Position numbers and translations under genes: made by a program. Shown here in pieces: positions 622-31,549 of a stretch of DNA of 34,550 bases. Location of the stretch: the NCBI GenBank assembly GCA_903874055.1, contig CAIQQR010000027.1, forward strand, positions 1-34,550, read 5' to 3'. Origin of the DNA: an uncultured Bacteroidota bacterium (lineage in GTDB: Bacteria > Bacteroidota > Bacteroidia > Chitinophagales > Chitinophagaceae). The first letter of the stretch is position 1. Each line of letters starts with the position of its first letter. The notes beneath the pieces were generated by a model, which saw only the letters and a list, made by a program, of their open reading frames with translations, did not search any database and was not told where the DNA came from.

Positions 622-650
622 CGAAGATAAACAAAAACCCCACCTTTCAA
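622..650 (-). promoter_or_regulatory. Promoter-like site for the helicase gene, overlapping a terminator
   Basis: TATCTTCG (622-629, minus strand) fits the Bacteroidota -7 box TAnnTTTG with one mismatch. CTTG-like sequence 18 bases upstream (648-651) would be the -33 box and lies in the loop of the upstream gene's terminator hairpin. Only 4 bases separate the box from the ATG. Confidence 0.45.
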
Positions 651-661
651 GGGTGGGGTTT
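630..661 (-). terminator. Intrinsic terminator of the OmpA-family lipoprotein gene
   Basis: A 10-bp perfect stem (AAACCCCACC at 635-644 with GGTGGGGTTT at 652-661). Read on the minus strand it runs into TTTTTGTTT, so it ends transcripts coming from the gene at 689-1579. Confidence 0.8.
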
Positions 662-688
662 GATAGTTTTTATAAAACTAAAATGGTC

Positions 689-1579
689 TTACTTTTTCTC
701 TAGTAATTTGAAGAATTGATCTAATTGAGGTAAGATCACGATTCTTGTACGTCTGTTTTTAGCTCTGTTTTCAGCCGTATTGTTTTCTGCAACAGGAATA
801 TATTCTGATCTACCAGCAGCAGTCATACGCTTAGGATCTAAACCATAAGTTTCTTGTAAAATACGTACTACTGTAGTTGCACGCTTTACAGATAAATCCC
901 AGTTGTCTTCTAAAGCAGGATTTGTACCTAATAATTGTTTAGTGTCTGTGTGACCTTCCACCATAAATTCAATTTGAGGTTGAGCAGCTAATACTTTAGC
1001 AACCTTACCTAGCACCACTTTAGCTTTATCTGTAACAGTAAAGCTTCCACTTTTAAATAATAATTTATCAGAGATGTCTACGTAAACAACACCTTTATCC
1101 ACTTTAACATTGATATCTCCATCGCTTAAATCACCAATCGCACCTTTCAAATTCATTACCAAGTTCATGTTAATAGAATCTTTACGCGCAATTGAGCTTT
1201 GTAAACCTTGAATATATAAATCTTTAGCACCAAGATTATCTAAAGACTTTTTAATGCTTTCCGCTTGAGCGCCAGTAACTACTGATAAATCTTTTAATTG
1301 ACTTAACACTACATTGTTATTAGATTTTAAGAAATCTATTTGTTTGTTTAAATCATCAATTGTTGCTTGAGCAGATTTTGCTTTATCATTTGCCTTGTCG
1401 GTAGCTGACTTACTTTTGTTTAATTCGTCTTCAGCATTACGTAGTTTTCCTTGTAATTCTGCATAAGCACCATTCAATTGAGCAACTTTTGCTTCACTTT
1501 CTTGTAATTTTTTAGGACTCACACAAGAATAAGCACCTATACTTACAATTGCAAGTGCTAAAAAAATCTTACTTTTCAT
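689..1579 (-). CDS. OmpA-family lipoprotein with coiled-coil N-terminus
   Basis: A predicted outer-membrane lipoprotein that anchors the envelope to peptidoglycan. It has an N-terminal signal with lipobox ending at Cys19 (SIGAYSC), then a long Lys/Ala/Asn-rich coiled-coil stretch at about residues 22-125, then an OmpA-like peptidoglycan-binding domain at about 160-285 with VEGHTDTK and NRRTRIVILP. Family knowledge: OmpA domains bind diaminopimelate through conserved Asp/Arg residues, which are present here. At 296 residues it is longer than Pal (about 170) because of the coiled coil, so it is a Pal-like or MotB-like stalk protein rather than Pal itself. It is transcribed alone: it has a full-consensus promoter upstream and a strong hairpin terminator downstream. 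Confidence 0.88.
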   Translation of the reverse strand: MKSKIFLALAIVSIGAYSCVSPKKLQESEAKVAQLNGAYAELQGKLRNAEDELNKSKSATDKANDKAKSAQATIDDLNKQIDFLKSNNNVVLSQLKDLSVVTGAQAESIKKSLDNLGAKDLYIQGLQSSIARKDSINMNLVMNLKGAIGDLSDGDINVKVDKGVVYVDISDKLLFKSGSFTVTDKAKVVLGKVAKVLAAQPQIEFMVEGHTDTKQLLGTNPALEDNWDLSVKRATTVVRILQETYGLDPKRMTAAGRSEYIPVAENNTAENRAKNRRTRIVILPQLDQFFKLLEKK

Positions 1580-21042: not shown

Positions 21043-22563
21043 ATGAGTCAAGATTTATCAGAACAAGAGATTATTAGAAGAGAAAAGCTCCAAAATTTAG
21101 AAGCTGCGGGCATCAATCCATACCCAGCTCCATTATATCCAGTTTCTCATTATTCTGCTGAAATAAAGCAAAATTTTTCCGAGGAAACCAAGGACAACTA
21201 TCTGAATGTATGTGTCGCGGGTAGAATTATGAGTGTAAACGATAAGGGCAAGGTATTGTTTGTGAAGATTCAGGACAATGACGGCATTTTTCAATTATAT
21301 ATAAAGAGAGATGAAATTTGTCCAGATGAAGACAAAACCTATTGGGATGTATTGACTAAAAATGGCATGGACCTAGGAGATATTATTGGAGCTACTGGTT
21401 ATGTGTTTATCACTAAAACAGGCGAGACTTCATTGCATGCCAGCACGGTTACATTATTGGCTAAGTCTTTAAAGCCATTGCCGGTTGTAAAGAGAGATGA
21501 GGAAGGAAATACTTTTGATGCAGTAACCGATCCGGAATTTAGATATCGTCAACGATATGCCGATTTAATTATTAATCCAGATGTAAAAGAAACATTTGCG
21601 AAGCGTACTATCTTAATGAATACGATTCGTGAATTTTTAAACACACGTGGTGCATTAGAAGTTGATACGCCAGTTTTACAAGCTATCCCTGGTGGTGCTG
21701 CAGCAAGACCATTTATTACGCATCATAATGCGTTGGATGTGCCTTTCTACTTGCGTATTGCCAATGAATTGTATTTAAAGCGTTTAATTGTGGGCGGATT
21801 TGATTGGGTGTATGAGTTTAGCCGCAACTTCCGTAACGAAGGCATGGACAGAACACATAATCCAGAATTCACCGTATTAGAATGGTACACTGCTTACAAG
21901 GATTATTTTTGGATGATGGAAATTACCGAGCAGTTGTTTGAAAAAATTGCTTTGACTTTACATGGCACTACAAAATTAACCGTAGGCGATAAAACGATTG
22001 ATTTTAAAGCACCTTATCGTCGCGTGAGTATTATGGATGCGATTAAAGAAAATACAGGTATAGATATAACAGGAATGGACGAAGCAGGTTTAAGAGAAGT
22101 GTGTAAGACTTTAAAGATTGATGTAGCTCCAACTATTGGAAAAGGAAAATTAATTGATGAAATTTTTGGCTCAACAAGTGAGCATACTTATACGCAACCA
22201 ACCTTTATCATTGACTATCCGGTGGAAATGAGTCCACTAACTAAAAAGCACAGAACCAAGGAAGGCTTGGTAGAGCGTTTTGAATTAATGGTCAATGGAA
22301 AAGAATTAGCGAATGCTTATTCTGAATTAAATGATCCAATTGATCAACGTAAGCGTTTTGAAGATCAGTTGGCTTTAATGGAAAGAGGAGATGACGAAGC
22401 CATGTTTATTGATCATGACTTTTTAAGAGCCTTAGAATATGGCATGCCACCTACTTCAGGTATTGGTATTGGAATAGACCGATTATGTATGATGATGTTA
22501 AATCAACCTTCTATTCAAGACGTATTGTTCTTCCCTCAAATGCGACCCGAGGCGCATAAATAA
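21043..22563 (+). CDS. lysS: Lysyl-tRNA synthetase, class II
   Basis: Charges tRNA-Lys with lysine. The 506 residues consist of an N-terminal OB-fold anticodon-binding domain (about 55-160, VAGRIMSVNDKGKVLFVKIQD) and the class II catalytic core with motif 1 (FLNTRGALEVDTPVLQ), motif 2 (FRNEGMDRTHNPEFTVLEWY) and motif 3 (GIGIGIDRLCMMMLN). The signature residues for lysine recognition appear intact. Length is normal for a bacterial LysRS. It is monocistronic with a hairpin terminator. Confidence 0.97.
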   Translation: MSQDLSEQEIIRREKLQNLEAAGINPYPAPLYPVSHYSAEIKQNFSEETKDNYLNVCVAGRIMSVNDKGKVLFVKIQDNDGIFQLYIKRDEICPDEDKTYWDVLTKNGMDLGDIIGATGYVFITKTGETSLHASTVTLLAKSLKPLPVVKRDEEGNTFDAVTDPEFRYRQRYADLIINPDVKETFAKRTILMNTIREFLNTRGALEVDTPVLQAIPGGAAARPFITHHNALDVPFYLRIANELYLKRLIVGGFDWVYEFSRNFRNEGMDRTHNPEFTVLEWYTAYKDYFWMMEITEQLFEKIALTLHGTTKLTVGDKTIDFKAPYRRVSIMDAIKENTGIDITGMDEAGLREVCKTLKIDVAPTIGKGKLIDEIFGSTSEHTYTQPTFIIDYPVEMSPLTKKHRTKEGLVERFELMVNGKELANAYSELNDPIDQRKRFEDQLALMERGDDEAMFIDHDFLRALEYGMPPTSGIGIGIDRLCMMMLNQPSIQDVLFFPQMRPEAHK

Positions 22564-22592
22564 AAGCTTTTTTAAATCTAAGCTTTTATTTA
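22561..22592 (+). terminator. lysS terminator
   Basis: TAAAAGCTT (22561-22569) pairs perfectly with AAGCTTTTA (22580-22588), loop of 10 bases, followed by TTTATT. It begins at the lysS stop codon. Confidence 0.6.
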
Positions 22593-22611
22593 TTGCTACT
22601 TTAATGATTTT

Positions 22612-22640
22612 TCAATGCACCCCATAAACGGGTGCATTGA
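22612..22640. repeat. Perfect 11-bp inverted repeat, no T-tract
   Basis: TCAATGCACCC and GGGTGCATTGA around CATAAAC, in the gap between convergent lysS and the M20 gene. No T-run follows on either strand, so it is not a standard intrinsic terminator; it could stabilise or process a 3' end or bind a protein. Confidence 0.6.
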
Positions 22641-22665
22641 TCTAGATAAAATTAATTGAGTTGTG

Positions 22666-25006: not shown

Positions 25007-25594
25007 CTATTTCGTGAAATCAGGTCCCAAAAATTCAATCAATAAATTGGCAGTATCATTGCAGGCTGTCTCCAATACTTCGTTTTTCACAACCTTATTA
25101 AATTGATTGCTAAAACTAATTTCATATGCAGCTTTATCAATTCTTGTTTGAATACTTTCTGGTGTTTCCGTTTGTCTATGCAATAATCTTTCTTTCAAAG
25201 CATCAATGGAAGGAGGCATAATAAATATAGAAAGACTTTTATCCCCCAATTGCTTTTGTACTTGAATGGCTCCTTTTACATCAATATCTAATACGGGTAC
25301 TTTTCCTAAGGCCCAAATACGCTCTAATTCTGACTTTAAGGTACCATAATAAACACCTTCATACACCTGCTCATATTCTAAAAACTCATTTTGATAAATG
25401 AGGCCTTCAAATTTGGCTAAACTTAAAAAATGATATGCTACTCCGTCCTGTTCGGCACCTCTAGGGGCACGGGTAGTAGCAGAAATAGAAAATGCTAAAC
25501 GCGAAAATCGTTCCAATAAATATTTAGTAATTGTAGTTTTACCTGCCCCCGATGGTGCAGCCAAAATGATTACTTTTTTCAAACTAGTTGACAT
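25007..25594 (-). CDS. gmk: Guanylate kinase
   Basis: Phosphorylates GMP to GDP. The 195 residues show the P-loop APSGAGKTTI (about 11-20), SISATTRAPRGAEQDGVAYHFLS (GMP-binding region), YYGTLKSELE, VLDIDVKGA and LLHRQTETPESIQTRI. The open frame can start two codons earlier at TTG 25600, but ATG 25594 is preferred because a TAAATTTG box ends 3 bases before it. It is divergent from the S10 peptidase gene, with both promoters in 68 bases. Confidence 0.96.
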   Translation of the reverse strand: MSTSLKKVIILAAPSGAGKTTITKYLLERFSRLAFSISATTRAPRGAEQDGVAYHFLSLAKFEGLIYQNEFLEYEQVYEGVYYGTLKSELERIWALGKVPVLDIDVKGAIQVQKQLGDKSLSIFIMPPSIDALKERLLHRQTETPESIQTRIDKAAYEISFSNQFNKVVKNEVLETACNDTANLLIEFLGPDFTK

Positions 25595-25597
25595 GCT

Positions 25598-25605
25598 CAA
25601 ATTTA
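25598..25605 (-). promoter_or_regulatory. TAnnTTTG box before gmk
   Basis: TAAATTTG on the minus strand, 3 bases before the gmk ATG: the shortest box-to-start distance in the window. Confidence 0.45.
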
Positions 25606-25619
25606 ATTAAATTATGCCG

Positions 25620-25627
25620 TATATTTA
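25620..25627 (+). promoter_or_regulatory. Promoter-like box before the S10 gene
   Basis: TATATTTA (one mismatch to TAnnTTTG), 35 bases before the ATG at 25663, divergent from the gmk box. Confidence 0.3.
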
Positions 25628-25662
25628 ACTATCATAATACTAAAGAACTTAAAAAGAAAAAT

Positions 25663-27198
25663 ATGCAAAAACAATTATGGGTAGCACTATTAATGGTTGG
25701 CTCTTTATTTGCGCAAGCACAAAAACCAAGTGAAGAAAGTCCAAAGCCAGCTGCAAATCAAGCCGATAATAATCCAAGCTTTAAAAGAGCACTTTCATTA
25801 GAGTCCAAAACGGAAGCAAGGGGTGAAGCCACTATAAAGGGACAAAAAGTACCTTATAAAGTAGTATCTGGAACTATACCTGTTTGGGACGAAGATGGTA
25901 AAGCGATTGCCGGTTTATTTTATGTGTATTATGAAAGAACTGATGTTACCAATAAAGACGAGCGTCCCTTAGTGATTTCATTTAATGGTGGCCCGGGTAC
26001 GGCAAGTGTTTGGATGCACTTAGGTTATACTAGCCCTAAAAAATTAAAAATTGACGATGAAGGATATCCTGTACAACCTTATGGTGTGGAGGATAACCCC
26101 AATTCCATTTTAGATGTGGCGGATATCGTGTATGTAGATCCTGTGAATACTGGCTTTTCACGCATTTTAGATAAGTCTGTTCCAACTTCAAAATTCTTTG
26201 GCGTAAATGCAGATGTAAAATATCTAGCGGATTGGATTAATACATTTGTTGGAAGAAATAAAAGATGGGCTTCACCAAAATTCTTAATTGGAGAAAGTTA
26301 TGGTACAACACGTGTATCTGGTTTGTCTTTAGAGTTACAAAATAGACACTGGATGTATTTAAATGGAGTTATATTAGTATCTCCAACCGATTTAGGTATT
26401 AAGCGCGAAGGCCCTACTAGTGCAGCGTTACGTGTACCTTATATGGCAGCAACTGCATGGTATCATAAAAAATTACCTGCTGATTTACAAAGCAAAGACC
26501 TTACTGCTTATTTACCCGAAGTGGAAGCTTTTACTTTAAATGAATTATTACCAGCCATTGCAAAAGGTTGGAATATTGATGCGGCACAGAAAACAGCCAT
26601 CACAAAAAAATTAGCACGTTACACAGGTTTAAGTGAAACTGCAGTGACACAACAAAATTTAGAAATTCCATTTGATTTTTTCTGGAAAGAATTATTACGT
26701 GATCAAGGAAAAACAGTAGGTCGTTTAGATTCAAGATATATTGGTATTGATAAAAAAGACGCCGGCGTAGGCCCTGATTATAATGCAGAGTTAACAAGTT
26801 GGGAGCATTCCTTTACGCCAGCAATTAATATTTATTTGAGAGATGTATTGGGTTATAAGACTGATTTAAACTATTATATTTTCGGCCCTACTTTCCCATG
26901 GGATAATAACAATAACCATACGGGTGATGACTTGCGTCAAGCAATGATGCAAAATCCTTACTTGCATTTATTGGTACAATCAGGATATTATGATGGCGCT
27001 TGTGATTATTTCAATGCCAAGTTTAATATGTGGCAAATGGATCCAGCAGGTAAAATTAAAGATAGAATGAGCTGGGAAGGCTATCGTAGTGGACATATGA
27101 TGTACTTACGAAAAGAAGACATTGTAACAAGCAATGATCACCTAAGAGCATTTATTAAAAAGAGTATTCCAAAATTTGGTACACCTGCAAAGTTTTAA
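25663..27198 (+). CDS. Secreted S10-family serine carboxypeptidase-like protein
   Basis: A periplasmic or secreted alpha/beta-hydrolase peptidase, 511 residues. The start at ATG 25663 gives a clean signal peptide (MQKQLWVALLMVGSLFAQAQ); the longer open frame from 25588 would bury it and overlaps gmk. Family motifs are SFNGGPGTASVWMHLG, VDPVNTGFS, the nucleophile elbow in LIGESYGTTR, and the acid/base pair in QSGYYDGACDY and EGYRSGHMMYLR, so the Ser-Asp-His triad is complete. This bacterial S10 branch is common in Bacteroidota; its substrate peptides are not known. It converges with ykuK across the twin hairpin module. Confidence 0.9.
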   Translation: MQKQLWVALLMVGSLFAQAQKPSEESPKPAANQADNNPSFKRALSLESKTEARGEATIKGQKVPYKVVSGTIPVWDEDGKAIAGLFYVYYERTDVTNKDERPLVISFNGGPGTASVWMHLGYTSPKKLKIDDEGYPVQPYGVEDNPNSILDVADIVYVDPVNTGFSRILDKSVPTSKFFGVNADVKYLADWINTFVGRNKRWASPKFLIGESYGTTRVSGLSLELQNRHWMYLNGVILVSPTDLGIKREGPTSAALRVPYMAATAWYHKKLPADLQSKDLTAYLPEVEAFTLNELLPAIAKGWNIDAAQKTAITKKLARYTGLSETAVTQQNLEIPFDFFWKELLRDQGKTVGRLDSRYIGIDKKDAGVGPDYNAELTSWEHSFTPAINIYLRDVLGYKTDLNYYIFGPTFPWDNNNNHTGDDLRQAMMQNPYLHLLVQSGYYDGACDYFNAKFNMWQMDPAGKIKDRMSWEGYRSGHMMYLRKEDIVTSNDHLRAFIKKSIPKFGTPAKF

Positions 27199-27276
27199 GT
27201 CGCTATAAGAATTTAGCTCCTTAAAACTTTCGATAATGATTCAAAAGGCCGCAATTCTGCGGCCTTTTTGTTTAAT
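27189..27276 (+). repeat. Hairpin-plus-terminator module, copy A
   Basis: AAAGTTTTAAG (27189-27199) pairs perfectly with CTTAAAACTTT (27220-27230), overlapping the S10 stop codon. A linker CGATAATGATT follows, then the terminator hairpin AAAAGGCCGC/GCGGCCTTTT (27243-27268) and TGTTT. The 55 bases at 27222-27276 recur at 27383-27437 with 50 identities. Confidence 0.75.
27243..27273 (+). terminator. Terminator of the S10 gene (copy A)
   Basis: Perfect 10-bp stem, loop AATTCT, run TTTTTGTTT. It follows the S10 stop by 45 bases. Confidence 0.8.
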
Positions 27277-27287
27277 AATTATTTTTT

Positions 27288-27330
27288 AAATATAGAAGCC
27301 CTAAACTGAAAAGTTAGTGCTTCTATATTT
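27288..27330. repeat. Inverted repeat between the two terminator copies
   Basis: AAATATAGAAGC (27288-27299) pairs perfectly with GCTTCTATATTT (27319-27330); inside, CTAAAC/GTTAG can pair with a bulge. No coding potential is apparent. Confidence 0.65.
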
Positions 27331-27352
27331 AATGCTTGGCACTCCGGCAAAG

Positions 27353-27437
27353 GTTTAGACCGTTAATAAAAATATAACGATCTAAAACTTTCGATAAAGA
27401 TTTAAAAGGCCGCAATTCTGCGACCTTTTGTTTTAAT
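27353..27437 (+). repeat. Hairpin-plus-terminator module, copy B
   Basis: GTTTAGACCGTTA (27353-27365) pairs with TAACGATCTAAAAC (27375-27388) with one mismatch and one bulge. The linker CGATAAAGATT follows, then AAAAGGCCGC/GCGACCTTTT (27404-27429), which has one C-A mismatch against copy A, and GTTTT. The 3' arm of the first hairpin is shared with copy A but the 5' arm is not. Confidence 0.7.
27404..27435 (+). terminator. Terminator-like hairpin, copy B
   Basis: Near-copy of the S10 terminator, weakened by one mismatch; followed by TTTTGTTTT on the plus strand. It also lies 22 bases beyond the ykuK stop and could serve that gene on the minus strand. Confidence 0.55.
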
Positions 27438-27450
27438 TCGTATTTATTTT

Positions 27451-27924
27451 TTAATGTATAACCTTATCTGCACAACAGCTACTAGCAAAGGCATCGGGTT
27501 TGGCTTTAAAGGCAAAACCCATTCCCATTATGTATCCCATGGCATCTTTTAAAGCATCATTGCTTTTGAATTGAGCGTTGGTATTGATATCTGCATGTAC
27601 TTCCATTTCAATATCGTATTCAATAAATAAATCACAAAGTTCATAAGCAACCTCGATACTTTTTGAAACTTCTAATAACATTCGTTCTTTAATGTGCAAT
27701 GACTGGGTTGATTTTTCATTATGTATAAACATAAAACCACCATTGTTTTGACGAAGAAAAACAATTACGGTTGCAAATTCTGTAAAGTTTTGTTTTACTT
27801 GACTATCGGTTCCAATATATACGGACAGCTTATTGTTTTTTTCAATTTCAGCTTCAATTGTTTTTCGAACCTGATCTTTGATAGGTAAATGAATAGGTTC
27901 TCCATTAAATTTTCTCCAATTCAT
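27451..27924 (-). CDS. YkuK-family (DUF458) RNase H-like protein
   Basis: A 157-residue member of the YkuK family, a predicted RNase H-fold nuclease of unknown role. The N-terminal LSVYIGTDSQVKQ carries the first acidic residue of the fold; EVHADINTNAQ (about 118-128) and MGYIMGMGFAFKAKPDAFASS match the family C-terminus. In many relatives the last motif reads SYxASSVADK; here it reads AFASSCCADK, with two cysteines. It converges with the S10 gene. Function in RNA or DNA metabolism is inferred from fold only. Confidence 0.8.
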   Translation of the reverse strand: MNWRKFNGEPIHLPIKDQVRKTIEAEIEKNNKLSVYIGTDSQVKQNFTEFATVIVFLRQNNGGFMFIHNEKSTQSLHIKERMLLEVSKSIEVAYELCDLFIEYDIEMEVHADINTNAQFKSNDALKDAMGYIMGMGFAFKAKPDAFASSCCADKVIH

Positions 27925-27992
27925 ACTATAAATATTATAGACATAAATTACTTAAAAAATTTAATTCAAACTAAATTTCTATGTTAAGTAAT

Positions 27993-29246
27993 CTATAATA
28001 AATGAGTGGCTTCCGATTTTTCGTAATTTGCATGCATTACAATAATCATGGTTAAGAATGTGGATGTATAAAATAAGTAGGTGTAAGGAACGTCAATAAA
28101 AGTATAAAAAAGGACTAAGCTTAATTTTAAGCTTGATAACAAAATTGCCGTTTTATTAAATTGATATTTTTTCTTAATCAATAGGAGTATGCTCATGTAA
28201 ATGGATGGAACCAAAAGCGAAAGTCCAATTAGCATTCTATGTTGAAGCATAATGTTGTTTGCACCAAAAAATTTAGCAAAACCCAAACCTTCTGTGAAAA
28301 CGGTGGGAGTGTCTTTCCAAACTCTGCTGGTAAAATCAATATAGCGTCCTGGTAAATTTAAAATATCGTGAATCAATTGCGTACCGAAAGGGTATATCAT
28401 AAAAAAGTAAAAAAAAACTAAAATGATAGCGCCCTGAGTAATAATATATTTCCAATTTTTTTCAATAATGCTATATAACAGTATAGCAGGAATCCATCCA
28501 ATAAATGCATACCTACTAAACAAACATAAAGTAATTACGATTGCCATTAAATACTTTTGTTGGTGTATAATGGTTACAGCAAGTAATAAATAAAATGTGA
28601 TTACGACAGTCTCTTCGGTATAAATAATCAAATTGGCGTCTTCCACACTAAATAAATACCAGAACAATAAAAATATAGAGGTGATCATTAAAACAGACCC
28701 CTCCTTATTTAAATTTAATCGCCAAATTGGGTAAGCAAAAATTAAAAAAAATAAACTCACCGATAACCATCTAATATCAATATGCAAAAAGGTTGGAATC
28801 GAAAATGGCATCCAAAGTGCAGGTAAATAAATCGGTTTGGTACCTCCCCAAATTTCATTAATGGGTTTATATACATCCTTTATTTTTAAATTTACGAATC
28901 GCTCACACATTACTTTGATAATGGGTAACATATCCGATTCCTTGTAATTGAGCGGATTGTATATAAAATATTCCATCGAAAATCGATACATAACAATCAA
29001 TACAATGATACTTATCAGTACTTTGTATTGAATATTTTTTCCATAAATATTTTTTAATTCATACTTATAAGAAGTAGCTTCAAATTTATTCTTGAGAATA
29101 AAAAAGGTGATTCCAAGTCCTGATAGCGTGTATAAAATTGAAATTAAAGACATGTAAGGCTTTAAATTCAGCAAAAAAGTAACACATAAGGTTTCAATCA
29201 GAAAAAATGCAATTAAAATAAAATTAAAGTATCTGTCCTTATTCAT
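27993..29246 (-). CDS. Multi-pass membrane protein, possible GT87/DUF2029-type glycosyltransferase
   Basis: A polytopic inner-membrane protein of about 417 residues with around ten hydrophobic helices. The first non-membrane loop after helix 3 holds short charged motifs and YKPINEIWGGTKPIYLPALWMPFSIP, a layout like the DUF2029/GT87 polyprenyl-phosphate mannosyltransferases. That assignment is by general resemblance only. The ATG at 29246 (MNKDRYFNFILIAFFL) is preferred to one at 29309, since the extension is hydrophilic and overlaps a plus-strand gene remnant. It is AT-richer in codon use than the neighbours and has no operon partner, so it may be a lineage-specific gene. Confidence 0.6.
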   Translation of the reverse strand: MNKDRYFNFILIAFFLIETLCVTFLLNLKPYMSLISILYTLSGLGITFFILKNKFEATSYKYELKNIYGKNIQYKVLISIIVLIVMYRFSMEYFIYNPLNYKESDMLPIIKVMCERFVNLKIKDVYKPINEIWGGTKPIYLPALWMPFSIPTFLHIDIRWLSVSLFFLIFAYPIWRLNLNKEGSVLMITSIFLLFWYLFSVEDANLIIYTEETVVITFYLLLAVTIIHQQKYLMAIVITLCLFSRYAFIGWIPAILLYSIIEKNWKYIITQGAIILVFFYFFMIYPFGTQLIHDILNLPGRYIDFTSRVWKDTPTVFTEGLGFAKFFGANNIMLQHRMLIGLSLLVPSIYMSILLLIKKKYQFNKTAILLSSLKLSLVLFYTFIDVPYTYLFYTSTFLTMIIVMHANYEKSEATHLL

Positions 29247-29311
29247 AATAGAGGCAAGATACAATTTACTTATAAATTTTCTTGAAAAACCATTTTGCCA
29301 TTCACCCAAGT

Positions 29312-29437
29312 TTGCAAGCTACAAAGGAAGATGATGCCTATTGGTTAAAAGGGATTGAACTTGGATTATTAGGCATACAAACAGATCATCCAAAAGAATT
29401 GGTACAATTTTTAAAAAAGATAAAAGTGCATAATTAA
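29312..29437 (+). pseudogene. C-terminal remnant of an unidentified protein gene
   Basis: A plus-strand frame of about 41 codons ends at TAA 29435-29437 and reads like the tail of a normal protein: KEDDAYWLKGIELGLLGI, then TDHPKELVQFLKKIK. There is no ATG; a TTG at 29312 is the only start-like codon and a stop lies in frame at 29273. The residue composition is strongly protein-like, and the fragment fills the gap between two minus-strand genes. I read it as the 3' end of a gene lost by deletion. A genuine small protein starting at TTG is the alternative. I do not recognise the family. Confidence 0.4.
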
Positions 29438-29458
29438 AAAAGAAAATTCAATACAACA

Positions 29459-30766
29459 CTAATCTACCCTTTTGATATCTGCACCTAATTCCTGTAACCT
29501 TGTATCAATGTATTGATAACCGCGGTCTATTTGTTCAATGTTTTGAATAACACTTTTTCCCTCAGCACTTAATGCTGCAATCAATAAAGCTTGACCAGCA
29601 CGGATATCAGGGCTAGTCATGGTAATGCCACGCAGTGGGTATTTGCGTCCTAGTCCAATCACGGTTGCTCTATGTGGATCACACAAAATAATTTGTGCAC
29701 CCATGTCAATTAATTTATCAGTAAAGAACAATCTGCTTTCAAACATTTTTTGATGTATCAATACGCTTCCTCTTGCTTGTGTTGCGGTAACTAAAACAAT
29801 ACTTAATAAATCGGGTGTGAAGCCGGGCCATGGATTATCATAAATGGTTAAAATTCCACCATCCATATAAGTTTGAATTTCATAATCTTCCTGAGCTGGG
29901 ATAAAAATGTCATCTCCTTGAATATCAAAATCAATACCTAGTAATCTAAATTTTTCAGTAATAATACCTAAGTGTTGAATGCCGGCATCTTTAATACGAA
30001 TCTCACTTTTAGTCATGGCAGCAAGACCAATGAACGAACCAATTTCAATCATGTCAGGTAAAATGCGATGTTCAGTTCCACCTAATTTTGTAACTCCTTC
30101 AATGGTTAATAAATTACTTCCTACTCCGGTTATTTTTGCACCCATTCTATTTAACATGCTACATAACTGTTGTAAATAAGGTTCACAGGCTGCATTGTAA
30201 ATGGTAGTAATTCCTTCGGCCAAAACTGCAGCCATCACAATGTTTGCAGTACCTGTCACCGAAGGTTCATCTAGTAACATATAACAACCCTTAAGTCCTT
30301 CTGTTTTAATAGTGAAGCAAGCAAGGTCTTGATCATATTCATATTTTGCACCTAATTTTTCAAAACCAATAATATGAGTATCTAATCTTCTGCGACCAAT
30401 TTTATCTCCACCTGGTTTAGGAAGATACGCAACCTTAAAGCGCGCTAATATAGGTCCAGCAAGCATTACAGAGCCACGTAAACGACCACTTTTTTTTCTA
30501 AATTCTTCTGAGGCTAAATATTGTGGATCAATTTTATCTGCTTGAAAACGATAAATACCTTCTCCTAATTTTTCAACACTCACTCCCATTTCATGTAATA
30601 ACTCAATCAATAAATTTACATCTACAATATTGGGGATATTAGAAATGGTAATGGGATCACTGCTTAAAACTACAGCCGATAAAATTTGTAAAGCTTCGTT
30701 TTTCGCCCCCTGTGGAATAATGGTGCCTTTTAATGCTTTACCGCCGCGCACTTCAAATGAACTCAT
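29459..30766 (-). CDS. murA: UDP-N-acetylglucosamine 1-carboxyvinyltransferase, Asp-type
   Basis: First committed step of peptidoglycan synthesis: transfers enolpyruvate from PEP to UDP-GlcNAc. The 435 residues show the two-domain EPSP-synthase fold, with the active Lys22 in QGAKNEALQ, RGSVMLAGPILARF, and RIKDAGIQHLGIITEKFRLLG. The catalytic-loop residue that is Cys115 in E. coli aligns to Asp121 here (PKPGGDKIGRR). Asp at this site is known from other bacteria, such as Mycobacterium and Chlamydia, and makes MurA insensitive to fosfomycin. It follows the DUF4290 gene in the same direction, a common pairing in Bacteroidota, but a terminator lies between them. Confidence 0.95.
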   Translation of the reverse strand: MSSFEVRGGKALKGTIIPQGAKNEALQILSAVVLSSDPITISNIPNIVDVNLLIELLHEMGVSVEKLGEGIYRFQADKIDPQYLASEEFRKKSGRLRGSVMLAGPILARFKVAYLPKPGGDKIGRRRLDTHIIGFEKLGAKYEYDQDLACFTIKTEGLKGCYMLLDEPSVTGTANIVMAAVLAEGITTIYNAACEPYLQQLCSMLNRMGAKITGVGSNLLTIEGVTKLGGTEHRILPDMIEIGSFIGLAAMTKSEIRIKDAGIQHLGIITEKFRLLGIDFDIQGDDIFIPAQEDYEIQTYMDGGILTIYDNPWPGFTPDLLSIVLVTATQARGSVLIHQKMFESRLFFTDKLIDMGAQIILCDPHRATVIGLGRKYPLRGITMTSPDIRAGQALLIAALSAEGKSVIQNIEQIDRGYQYIDTRLQELGADIKRVD

Positions 30767-30801: not shown

Positions 30802-30838
30802 GTAAAAAAAATCCCGTTACTAAATAAGAACGGGATTT
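30802..30838 (-). terminator. Intrinsic terminator of the DUF4290 gene
   Basis: AAATCCCGTT (30809-30818) pairs perfectly with AACGGGATTT (30829-30838); on the minus strand the hairpin is followed by TTTTTACAA. It separates DUF4290 from murA. Confidence 0.8.
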
Positions 30839-30856
30839 ACTTTATAATATTTTGAA

Positions 30857-31549
30857 CTAGTACCTTTTTTTGAAATTGCGGTTATTGTTGTTTCTTCCAC
30901 CTCCGCCTCCGCTAGGTCCACGGCCACTTCCTCCGCCTTGTCCACCTCGATTGCGGTTATTGTTTTGCCATCTTCCTCCAGCTGGTCGGTAATCATCACT
31001 AAAGTTTTGATTGCGATGTTTAATATAAGGAGTATTGCTAAATTCAAGACCACCGCCTGTTATTGAATTTAATTCACTTCGAATAGCGTCATCTTGTACC
31101 AATTCTTTATGCCAATTACTATATGCTAACTTCATATAATGGGCGATACTATTGGCAAAACCTGCTTTCTTTTCTTCATCGGTCTCCGCCATGGCTTTAT
31201 CAATCACCAATTCTAAATTTTTACCTAGGTGTGCATATTTGATTTTGCGTTTAGGATAAGGCAATGGATCGGGCTTTTGCTTATAGGTTTCCTTGGTAGG
31301 AATCGGATAAGGACTTTCCAAGTCCAATTTAAAATTGCTCATAAAAAACAGGTGGTCCCATAATTTATGCTTGTAATCTTCAATATTCTTTAGGGACGGA
31401 TTTAAGAATCCCATCAATTCAATCACTACTTGGGCTTGCTCTTGACGCTTGGCTTTGTCCTCAATAGTCATAAGATGGTCCACCATCCTTTGAACGTGAC
31501 GGCCATACTCTCTCATCCCCATTATGCTTCTTGCTGTATTGTACTCCAT
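30857..31549 (-). CDS. DUF4290 protein with Gly/Arg/Asn-rich tail
   Basis: A conserved Bacteroidota protein of unknown function, 230 residues. The DUF4290 domain fills about 1-180 (MEYNTARSIMGMREYGRH at the start, IAHYMKLAYSNWHKE later) and looks all-helical. The last 43 residues (188-230) are low-complexity: runs of Gly, Asn and Arg with RGG and GRG steps, ending in basic FKKRY. Such tails bind RNA in other proteins, so an RNA-associated role is possible; that is inference. It sits upstream of murA and divergent from pheS. ATG 31549 is the only good start. Confidence 0.82.
   Translation of the reverse strand: MEYNTARSIMGMREYGRHVQRMVDHLMTIEDKAKRQEQAQVVIELMGFLNPSLKNIEDYKHKLWDHLFFMSNFKLDLESPYPIPTKETYKQKPDPLPYPKRKIKYAHLGKNLELVIDKAMAETDEEKKAGFANSIAHYMKLAYSNWHKELVQDDAIRSELNSITGGGLEFSNTPYIKHRNQNFSDDYRPAGGRWQNNNRNRGGQGGGSGRGPSGGGGGRNNNNRNFKKRY

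Follow-up and report, generated by a model that had tools for sequence, protein, structure and literature searches.

The window, that is the whole stretch of 34,550 nucleotides analysed here, comes from a draft genome that totals 2.13 Mb and is split into 131 contigs. It carries a gene for an S10 serine-carboxypeptidase-like protein, at whose end two tandem copies of a hairpin–linker–hairpin unit are found, with a separate third hairpin between them and an RNase H-like gene on their other flank. An intact unit of the same kind lies at the stop codon of lysS (Table 1).

Table 1. Features at the S10 and lysS gene ends, in window coordinates
Feature	Position	Strand	Basis or remark
lysS	21043-22563		
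Intact family member at the lysS stop	22553..22643	+	R2 86 bits, E 3.3e-15, this member being part of the R2 training set; also found without the model
lysS member, hairpin 1	22556-22593		
lysS member, hairpin 2	22613-22639		Loop CATAAAC
S10 serine-carboxypeptidase-like gene	25588..27198	+	ORF; Pfam Peptidase_S10, E 5.9e-13
5' arm of copy 1 hairpin 1	27189-27199		Last S10 codons and stop
Copy 1, degenerate family member	27188..27271	+	R2 match, fold, terminator scan
Copy 1, hairpin 1 arms	27189-27199/27220-27230		
Copy 1, linker	27231-27242		
Copy 1, hairpin 2	27243-27268		
Third hairpin, separate module	27288..27330	.	Arms 27288-27299 / 27319-27330
Second copy of the S10 gene tail	27336..27357	+	Reads LGTPAKV-stop
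Copy 2, degenerate family member	27348..27432	+	R2 match, fold, homology to copy 1
Copy 2, hairpin 1 arms	27349-27359/27381-27391		
Copy 2, linker	27392-27403		
Copy 2, hairpin 2	27404-27429		
RNase H-like gene	27451-27924	-	
murA-like gene	29459-30766		

The end of the S10 gene and its copies

The first-pass annotation of this region had reported a 55-base repeat with 50 identities (27222-27276 against 27383-27437), present twice on the same strand, and recomputation returned the same value. The true copy, however, is longer and begins within the final S10 codons: in the alignment of the two tails (TTGGTACACCTGCAAAGTTTTA, 27176; TTGGCACTCCGGCAAAGGTTTA, 27336), similarity reaches upstream into these codons. 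The full alignment of copy 1 with copy 2 scored 117 (best of 1000 shuffles, 46), and its upstream part by itself scored 35 (best of 5000 shuffles, 31). Since the similarity continues through the S10 end codons, copy 2 includes a copy of the gene end with an in-frame stop, and the upstream partner arms of the two units, which had been described as differing in sequence, turn out to be homologous. A perfect 12-bp inverted repeat between the copies, also noted earlier, was found again and folds with a z-score of -9.05; the two units fold as had been claimed (z-scores of -6.30 and -3.41), and for the entire stretch the z-score was -8.46, with none of 200 shuffles equally stable.

Both units match the family model R2 described below, which was trained without S10 members. 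Specifically, copy 1 scored 33.4 bits (E 2e-4 in the window and 0.0025 in a 425-kb search, these E-values, like all those of R1 and R2 given here, being rough because of a short calibration). Copy 2 scored 26.1 bits (E 0.0063 and 0.078, respectively), which is weak alone, and it is counted as a family member because it is homologous to copy 1. The hairpin 2 loop of both copies differs from CATAAAC, and a terminator scan listed hairpin 2 of copy 1 on the plus strand and copy 2 on the minus strand only. The S10 copies of the window are degenerate, and they may now act as terminators. Weak R2 matches were also recorded elsewhere in the window, at 631-717 (minus strand, 22.1 bits, E 0.042) and 30802-30867 (plus strand, 16.5 bits, E 0.59).

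The exact linker and tail of the window copies occur nowhere else in the window's own genome. With two mismatches allowed, the linker gave one extra match there, against four for the reversed control; with three mismatches, the tail gave none, against two. A wider search for the exact modules was carried out in 61 sampled genomes of the genus. The third hairpin, with three mismatches allowed, was found at six places in five of these genomes, each adjoining an S10 gene, so that it is present at the S10 ends of four genomes besides the window's; the terminator, with two mismatches, was found at two places, both within the window. Roaming copies of these two modules were therefore rejected. The linker, with one mismatch allowed, gave 19 places in 14 genomes, 13 at S10 ends and six elsewhere, the latter carrying one mismatch each, compared with 12 matches in the reversed control.

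By S10 protein, the close relatives are mostly metagenome-assembled Bacteroidetes, Chitinophagaceae and Sediminibacterium; in our reading of their names, the clade is of freshwater origin. Among 41 distinct S10 loci with more than 74% amino-acid identity and at least 150 nt of downstream sequence, 11 showed a copy of the gene tail (at least 18 of 24 positions) within 400 nt, compared with none of 41 in the reversed control; no tail copy was found in 41 more distant S10 loci. In several loci tail copies and modules repeat with a step of about 83 nt, and the modules differ. The CATAAAC loop is present in the S10 copies of several relatives, and R2 scores of relatives' S10 copies ranged from 25.7 to 81.8 bits among the matches listed. 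A single plain terminator in relatives had been proposed as the observation that would speak against a structured unit: as a group the S10 relatives look different, although some do have one plain hairpin.

Hairpin 1 of the S10 loci covaries, with both sides changed at 6 of 16 pairs and 25 cells against 9.0 in shuffles, none of 500 shuffles reaching 25; one of five covariation measures, the count of further pair types, gave 9 against 10.4 in shuffles. Tail duplication as a genome-wide habit was not seen among 158 gene ends of a 213-kb sample, in which S10 scored highest (18 of 24); this test is weak alone, because the reversed control also reached 18 once.

Some further observations concern single loci. 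About 273 nt past the S10 stop of L008, an inverted copy of the S10 tail lies within a longer palindrome. At six loci (L005, L008, L009, L015, L020 and L054) the S10 gene end is itself a near-perfect palindrome of the TTTGGCA-CACC-TGCCAAA type, and the synonymous choice between GCC AAA TTT and GCA AAG TTT tends to track the following module. The spacer between the S10 and murA-like genes (27199-29459) varies in gene content among relatives, the genes, named by eye, being RNase H-like here and regulator-like, ORF6N-like or AbrB-like in relatives. As these genes differ across relatives, the spacer may be an insertion hotspot.

A family of two-hairpin elements at gene ends

R1, a covariance model built on hairpin 1 of the S10 loci, gave strong matches (E<=1e-5) at S10 ends and weaker ones at other places. 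Ten weak matches were inspected, together with one S10 end as a check, and seven of the ten fit a two-hairpin plan: these lie at the ends of other genes and show two hairpins with a similar linker (L174, L175, L176, L179-L182), and the fit of the remaining three (L173, L177, L178) is incomplete. A detector of the hairpin–linker–hairpin arrangement, run on 213 kb of the window's own genome, returned five matches, namely the lysS end of the window, the two S10 copies, one case in which hairpin 2 and the third hairpin were taken as a pair, and one apparently by chance; the reversed sequence returned none. The pattern ATGATTTTT...CCATAAACG was found at 75 places in 29 of the 61 genomes, and at none in the reversed control of all 61.

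Inspection covered 71 distinct members; 12 near-duplicates, S10 members and odd ones were dropped, and 50 of the remaining 59 were aligned (alignment A2). On A2, RNAalifold predicted two hairpins, and 20 of their 21 pairs show double changes, which bears out the earlier proposal of a structured unit whose fold is kept despite changes in stem sequence. Because the collecting pattern fixes ATGATTTTT and CCATAAACG, their invariance in A2 holds by construction; R2 matches with altered letters at these positions (L296, L299, L305, L306, L313) indicate that the conservation is real, though not absolute.

R2, the covariance model built from A2, matched at E<=0.01 in 34 of the 61 sampled genus genomes, with 4 to 27 matches each and 16 in the window's own genome. 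In an order-wide search at E<=1e-4 with stricter filters, 3 of the 298 genomes sampled gave matches; all three belong to this genus, so that one of 140 genera was positive. A further 178,765 bases of the own genome gave no R2 match at E 0.1. Phages were considered as carriers of the family and rejected: the pattern occurs in 12 viral stretches, but R2 gave no match there at E 0.1. The covariance-model search that had been recommended did find family matches after unrelated genes. The earlier idea of a mobile or family element is hence upheld as regards the family, but not as regards movement of the exact modules of the window: the third hairpin, the terminator and the strong R1 matches are confined to S10 ends in the genomes searched.

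With Rfam 15, no match in the window reached the gathering score, and the S10 and lysS matches all stayed below it, at a relaxed E-value too. Among the titles and abstract openings covered by a literature search we recognised no description of the family, and we claim its absence from these only. In conclusion, the unit belongs to a family without an Rfam 15 match, which is real, limited to this clade and located at gene ends.

The architecture of the element is as follows. Hairpin 1 lies at the stop codon and is free in stem sequence, with 14-19 bp in 58 of 72 stems (range 8-21). It is followed by a conserved linker near TCTTATGATTTTTTC and by hairpin 2, whose stem is again free in sequence and mostly of 11 bp (42 of 57), and whose loop is CATAAAC. 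After hairpin 2, many members show a ATTTATTT-like sequence and no clean T run. The core is found 25-55 nt past a stop codon of the same strand in 56 of the 71 members; two others have no detectable stop, and several of the remaining 13 are second copies. A peptide encoded by ATGATTTTT was rejected by eye, as its distance from the loop is not constant, differing by 1-2 nt.

Ten candidate host proteins, eight of them as C-terminal pieces, were compared with NCBIfam. The curated cut-off was reached for rho, nadD, an alpha-glucan phosphorylase, rplT and lysS; carB, a dihydrolipoamide acyltransferase, a deoxyhypusine-synthase-like protein and gyrB came out as best matches without reaching it. The tenth protein, which had no NCBIfam match, we take to be a dipeptidase. 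gyrB was rejected as a host, since the stop at the element belongs to another reading frame, which lies downstream of it and is open for 72 codons. The gene for the Rho termination factor itself carries a tandem pair of elements (G000:C52:4925-5103, L301). Occupancy of a given gene end varies: among 32 distinct versions of the convergent lysS/amidohydrolase spacer, R2 matched at E<=0.1 at lysS only in six, at the other gene only in nine, at both in four and at neither in 13.

Pairing bias and relation to the coding sequence

The mismatches tolerated in the stems were counted by type. The 77 distinct stems of hairpin 1 are nearly perfect, with one G-U, 20 A-C and 21 other mismatches, and the 57 distinct stems of hairpin 2 have one G-U, 16 A-C (seven of these 16 being one recurrent variant) and eight others, so that the two stems combined hold 2 G-U and 36 A-C. 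As a control we used 89 other gene-end hairpins of the same sequences, leaving out stretches with family motifs, and obtained 29 G-U and 7 A-C. Since the original requirement of a T run could favour G-U, the control was run again in six forms that kept or dropped the T run, the G+C limit and the stem base; these comprised 85-126 hairpins with 23-32 G-U and 4-9 A-C, giving Fisher p-values of 4e-11 to 1e-13, which are strong but not exact because related loci are not independent.

What reads as an A-C mismatch on one strand becomes a G-T or G-U wobble on the other, so the constrained fold appears to be that of the strand complementary to the mRNA, either as DNA or as antisense RNA. The structured RNA that had been suggested earlier does not look like one of the mRNA strand, as wobble pairs are tolerated on the opposite strand. 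Many hairpin 1 stems bear A and T tracts like those of a two-way terminator, so that an RNA role may still hold. The same logic, a direction argued from G-U pairs, is used in the report on the L17 downstream element (PMC2864571). That element resembles ours in that it, too, is structured and sits 3' in a gene's region; it lies downstream of one gene and its G-U pairs favour the drawn strand (PMC2864571), whereas here many genes are involved and the other strand is favoured.

Hairpin 1 follows the end of its own gene. Of 72 members, 58 have a stem that covers the stop codon; the stem extends 2 nt or more into the codons in 22, by up to 20 bp (L188, L189), and stops short of them in 47. Over 65 members 115 base pairs lie in codons, against a mean of 29.6 and a maximum of 65 in 200 swaps of the tails, and genes with similar ends (those of the putative dipeptidase: L188, L273, L254, L298) have the hairpin in different registers. 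The drop upon swapping and the shifting registers indicate that the 3' arm of hairpin 1 is complementary to whatever sits upstream, codons included.

Second copies about 83-94 nt downstream were observed at other genes too. In L301, L303, L304, L305 and L306 the 5' arm of the second copy is missing, either entirely or in its outer part; the second copies of L199 and L217 have an intact stem of their own, and in L307 an intact one lies farther off. Past hairpin 2, 13 of 81 members show direct repeats of arm and loop of at least 12 nt; swapped pairs gave a mean of 1.2 (maximum 4) and reversed sequence none. Such repeats as a flank of every element were rejected: they are found in a subset only, and the median equals that of swapped pairs.

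Comparison of species pointed to the sharing or replacement of whole blocks. The window and the S10 loci L060, L036 and L105 agree in every base over the 12-15 nt that precede the S10 stop and over 45-46 nt counted from it (in L036 up to the contig end), at a CDS end identity of 85-91%; five other S10 loci share merely 2-10 nt from the stop on. At lysS, window and L105 are identical over 12+51 nt, with a CDS end identity of 89.5%. Among the 528 pairs of 33 S10 loci, five combine a module identity >=0.95 with a CDS identity <=0.90, and 32 a module identity <0.6 with a CDS identity >=0.88. Hairpin 1 and linker are thus moved or replaced as a unit.

Possible origin and role

We consider it probable, judging from sequence comparison, that the window carries tandem, degenerate members of a clade-specific gene-end element, with a fold on the strand opposite to the mRNA and with copies produced by template switching, slippage and recombination. 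The mechanism and function that we infer would be the following. Either a DNA site on the folded strand or an antisense transcript would be recognised by way of loops and linker. The matching arms, the tandem units and the copy of the gene tail would arise from short-range template switching and from slippage at palindromes, together with recombination between relatives. At the S10 gene of this genome the hairpin 2 loop would have been lost, and the copies are perhaps stacked terminators between convergent genes.

A somewhat unlikely alternative is a module of the mRNA 3' end, in which the stop region is protected by hairpin 1, transcription ends at hairpin 2 as an intrinsic terminator, and further terminators in reserve are supplied by the tandem copies. 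The distance of the core from a same-strand stop in most members would fit such a module, as would the terminator-scan result for hairpin 2 of copy 1 and the T tract that ends many hairpin 1 stems. However, G-U pairs are nearly missing and A-C is tolerated, the opposite of other gene-end hairpins, many hairpin 2s are followed by the ATTTATTT-like sequence instead of a clean T run, and termination needs no conserved loop or linker. Intrinsic terminators do share with the element hairpins past the stop codon, and clusters of hairpins reportedly act as terminators; unlike them, the element has a conserved linker and loop, a hairpin built on the gene end and a reversed wobble skew.

An extension of the folded-strand idea to a cassette-like system is rather unlikely. 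In that case a single DNA strand opposite to the mRNA would fold and be recognised by loops, linker and stem length, would be built onto the gene end with the help of an inverted copy of it, grow in tandem and be swapped between species, and would allow core genes to exchange their 3' ends while the protein is kept. Integron attC sites lie at gene ends, are defined by structure more than by sequence, and fold on the bottom strand. Our element differs in having two hairpins.

An antisense element seems unlikely; in this reading transcripts coming from downstream would fold, stop before the gene and shield it against antisense transcription. The complementary strand tolerates wobble, the A and T tracts of hairpin 1 would terminate in that direction and convergent neighbours are common; yet a convergent gene is missing from the stretch examined around some members (e.g. 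L217, L307), stems entirely within codons (e.g. L188) lack a T tract, and hairpin 2 does not have terminator form on that strand. No likelier is the absence of any function, in which case template switching would keep the palindromes uniform and slippage would raise their number. Homogenisation of arms by template switching has been described in yeast (PMC8604942), and near-perfect stems, arms matching codons, tandem units and the arm and loop direct repeats (13/81 members against a swapped mean of 1.2) would all follow; but a linker and loop common to unrelated genes, the 11-bp stem of hairpin 2, the position at the stop codon and the skew of G-U against A-C would be left unexplained. That copy 2 is the mere 3' remnant of a duplicated S10 gene, as its gene tail and stop might suggest, is scarcely credible, because this tail is just about 22 nt long, tail copies occur in 11 of 41 distinct S10 loci with differing modules often about 83 nt apart, and no second S10 match was found in the window's own genome.

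Among repeat families, the clade-specific gene-end element is reminiscent of REP and BIME sequences, which PMC3733652 describes as short palindromes downstream of coding regions, sometimes clustered, with proposed roles in termination and mRNA stability; here too short palindromes lie past coding regions. REPs mostly bear a GTAG or CGTC tag and usually number more than 100 copies, as stated in PMC3733652 and PMC2817692. Our element, in contrast, has free stems with a conserved loop and linker, amounts to 4-27 matches per positive genome, and shows no conserved GTAG or CGTC column in the 50 sequences of A2.

If the interpretation is correct, a clade of freshwater bacteria would mark the ends of genes such as rho, rplT, lysS, nadD and carB with one and the same element, a testable gene-end element shaped by the folding of a DNA strand or by antisense RNA. 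It would also be a natural system in which to watch template switching write inverted copies of coding sequence, and it would mean that covariation at gene ends need not signify mRNA structure.
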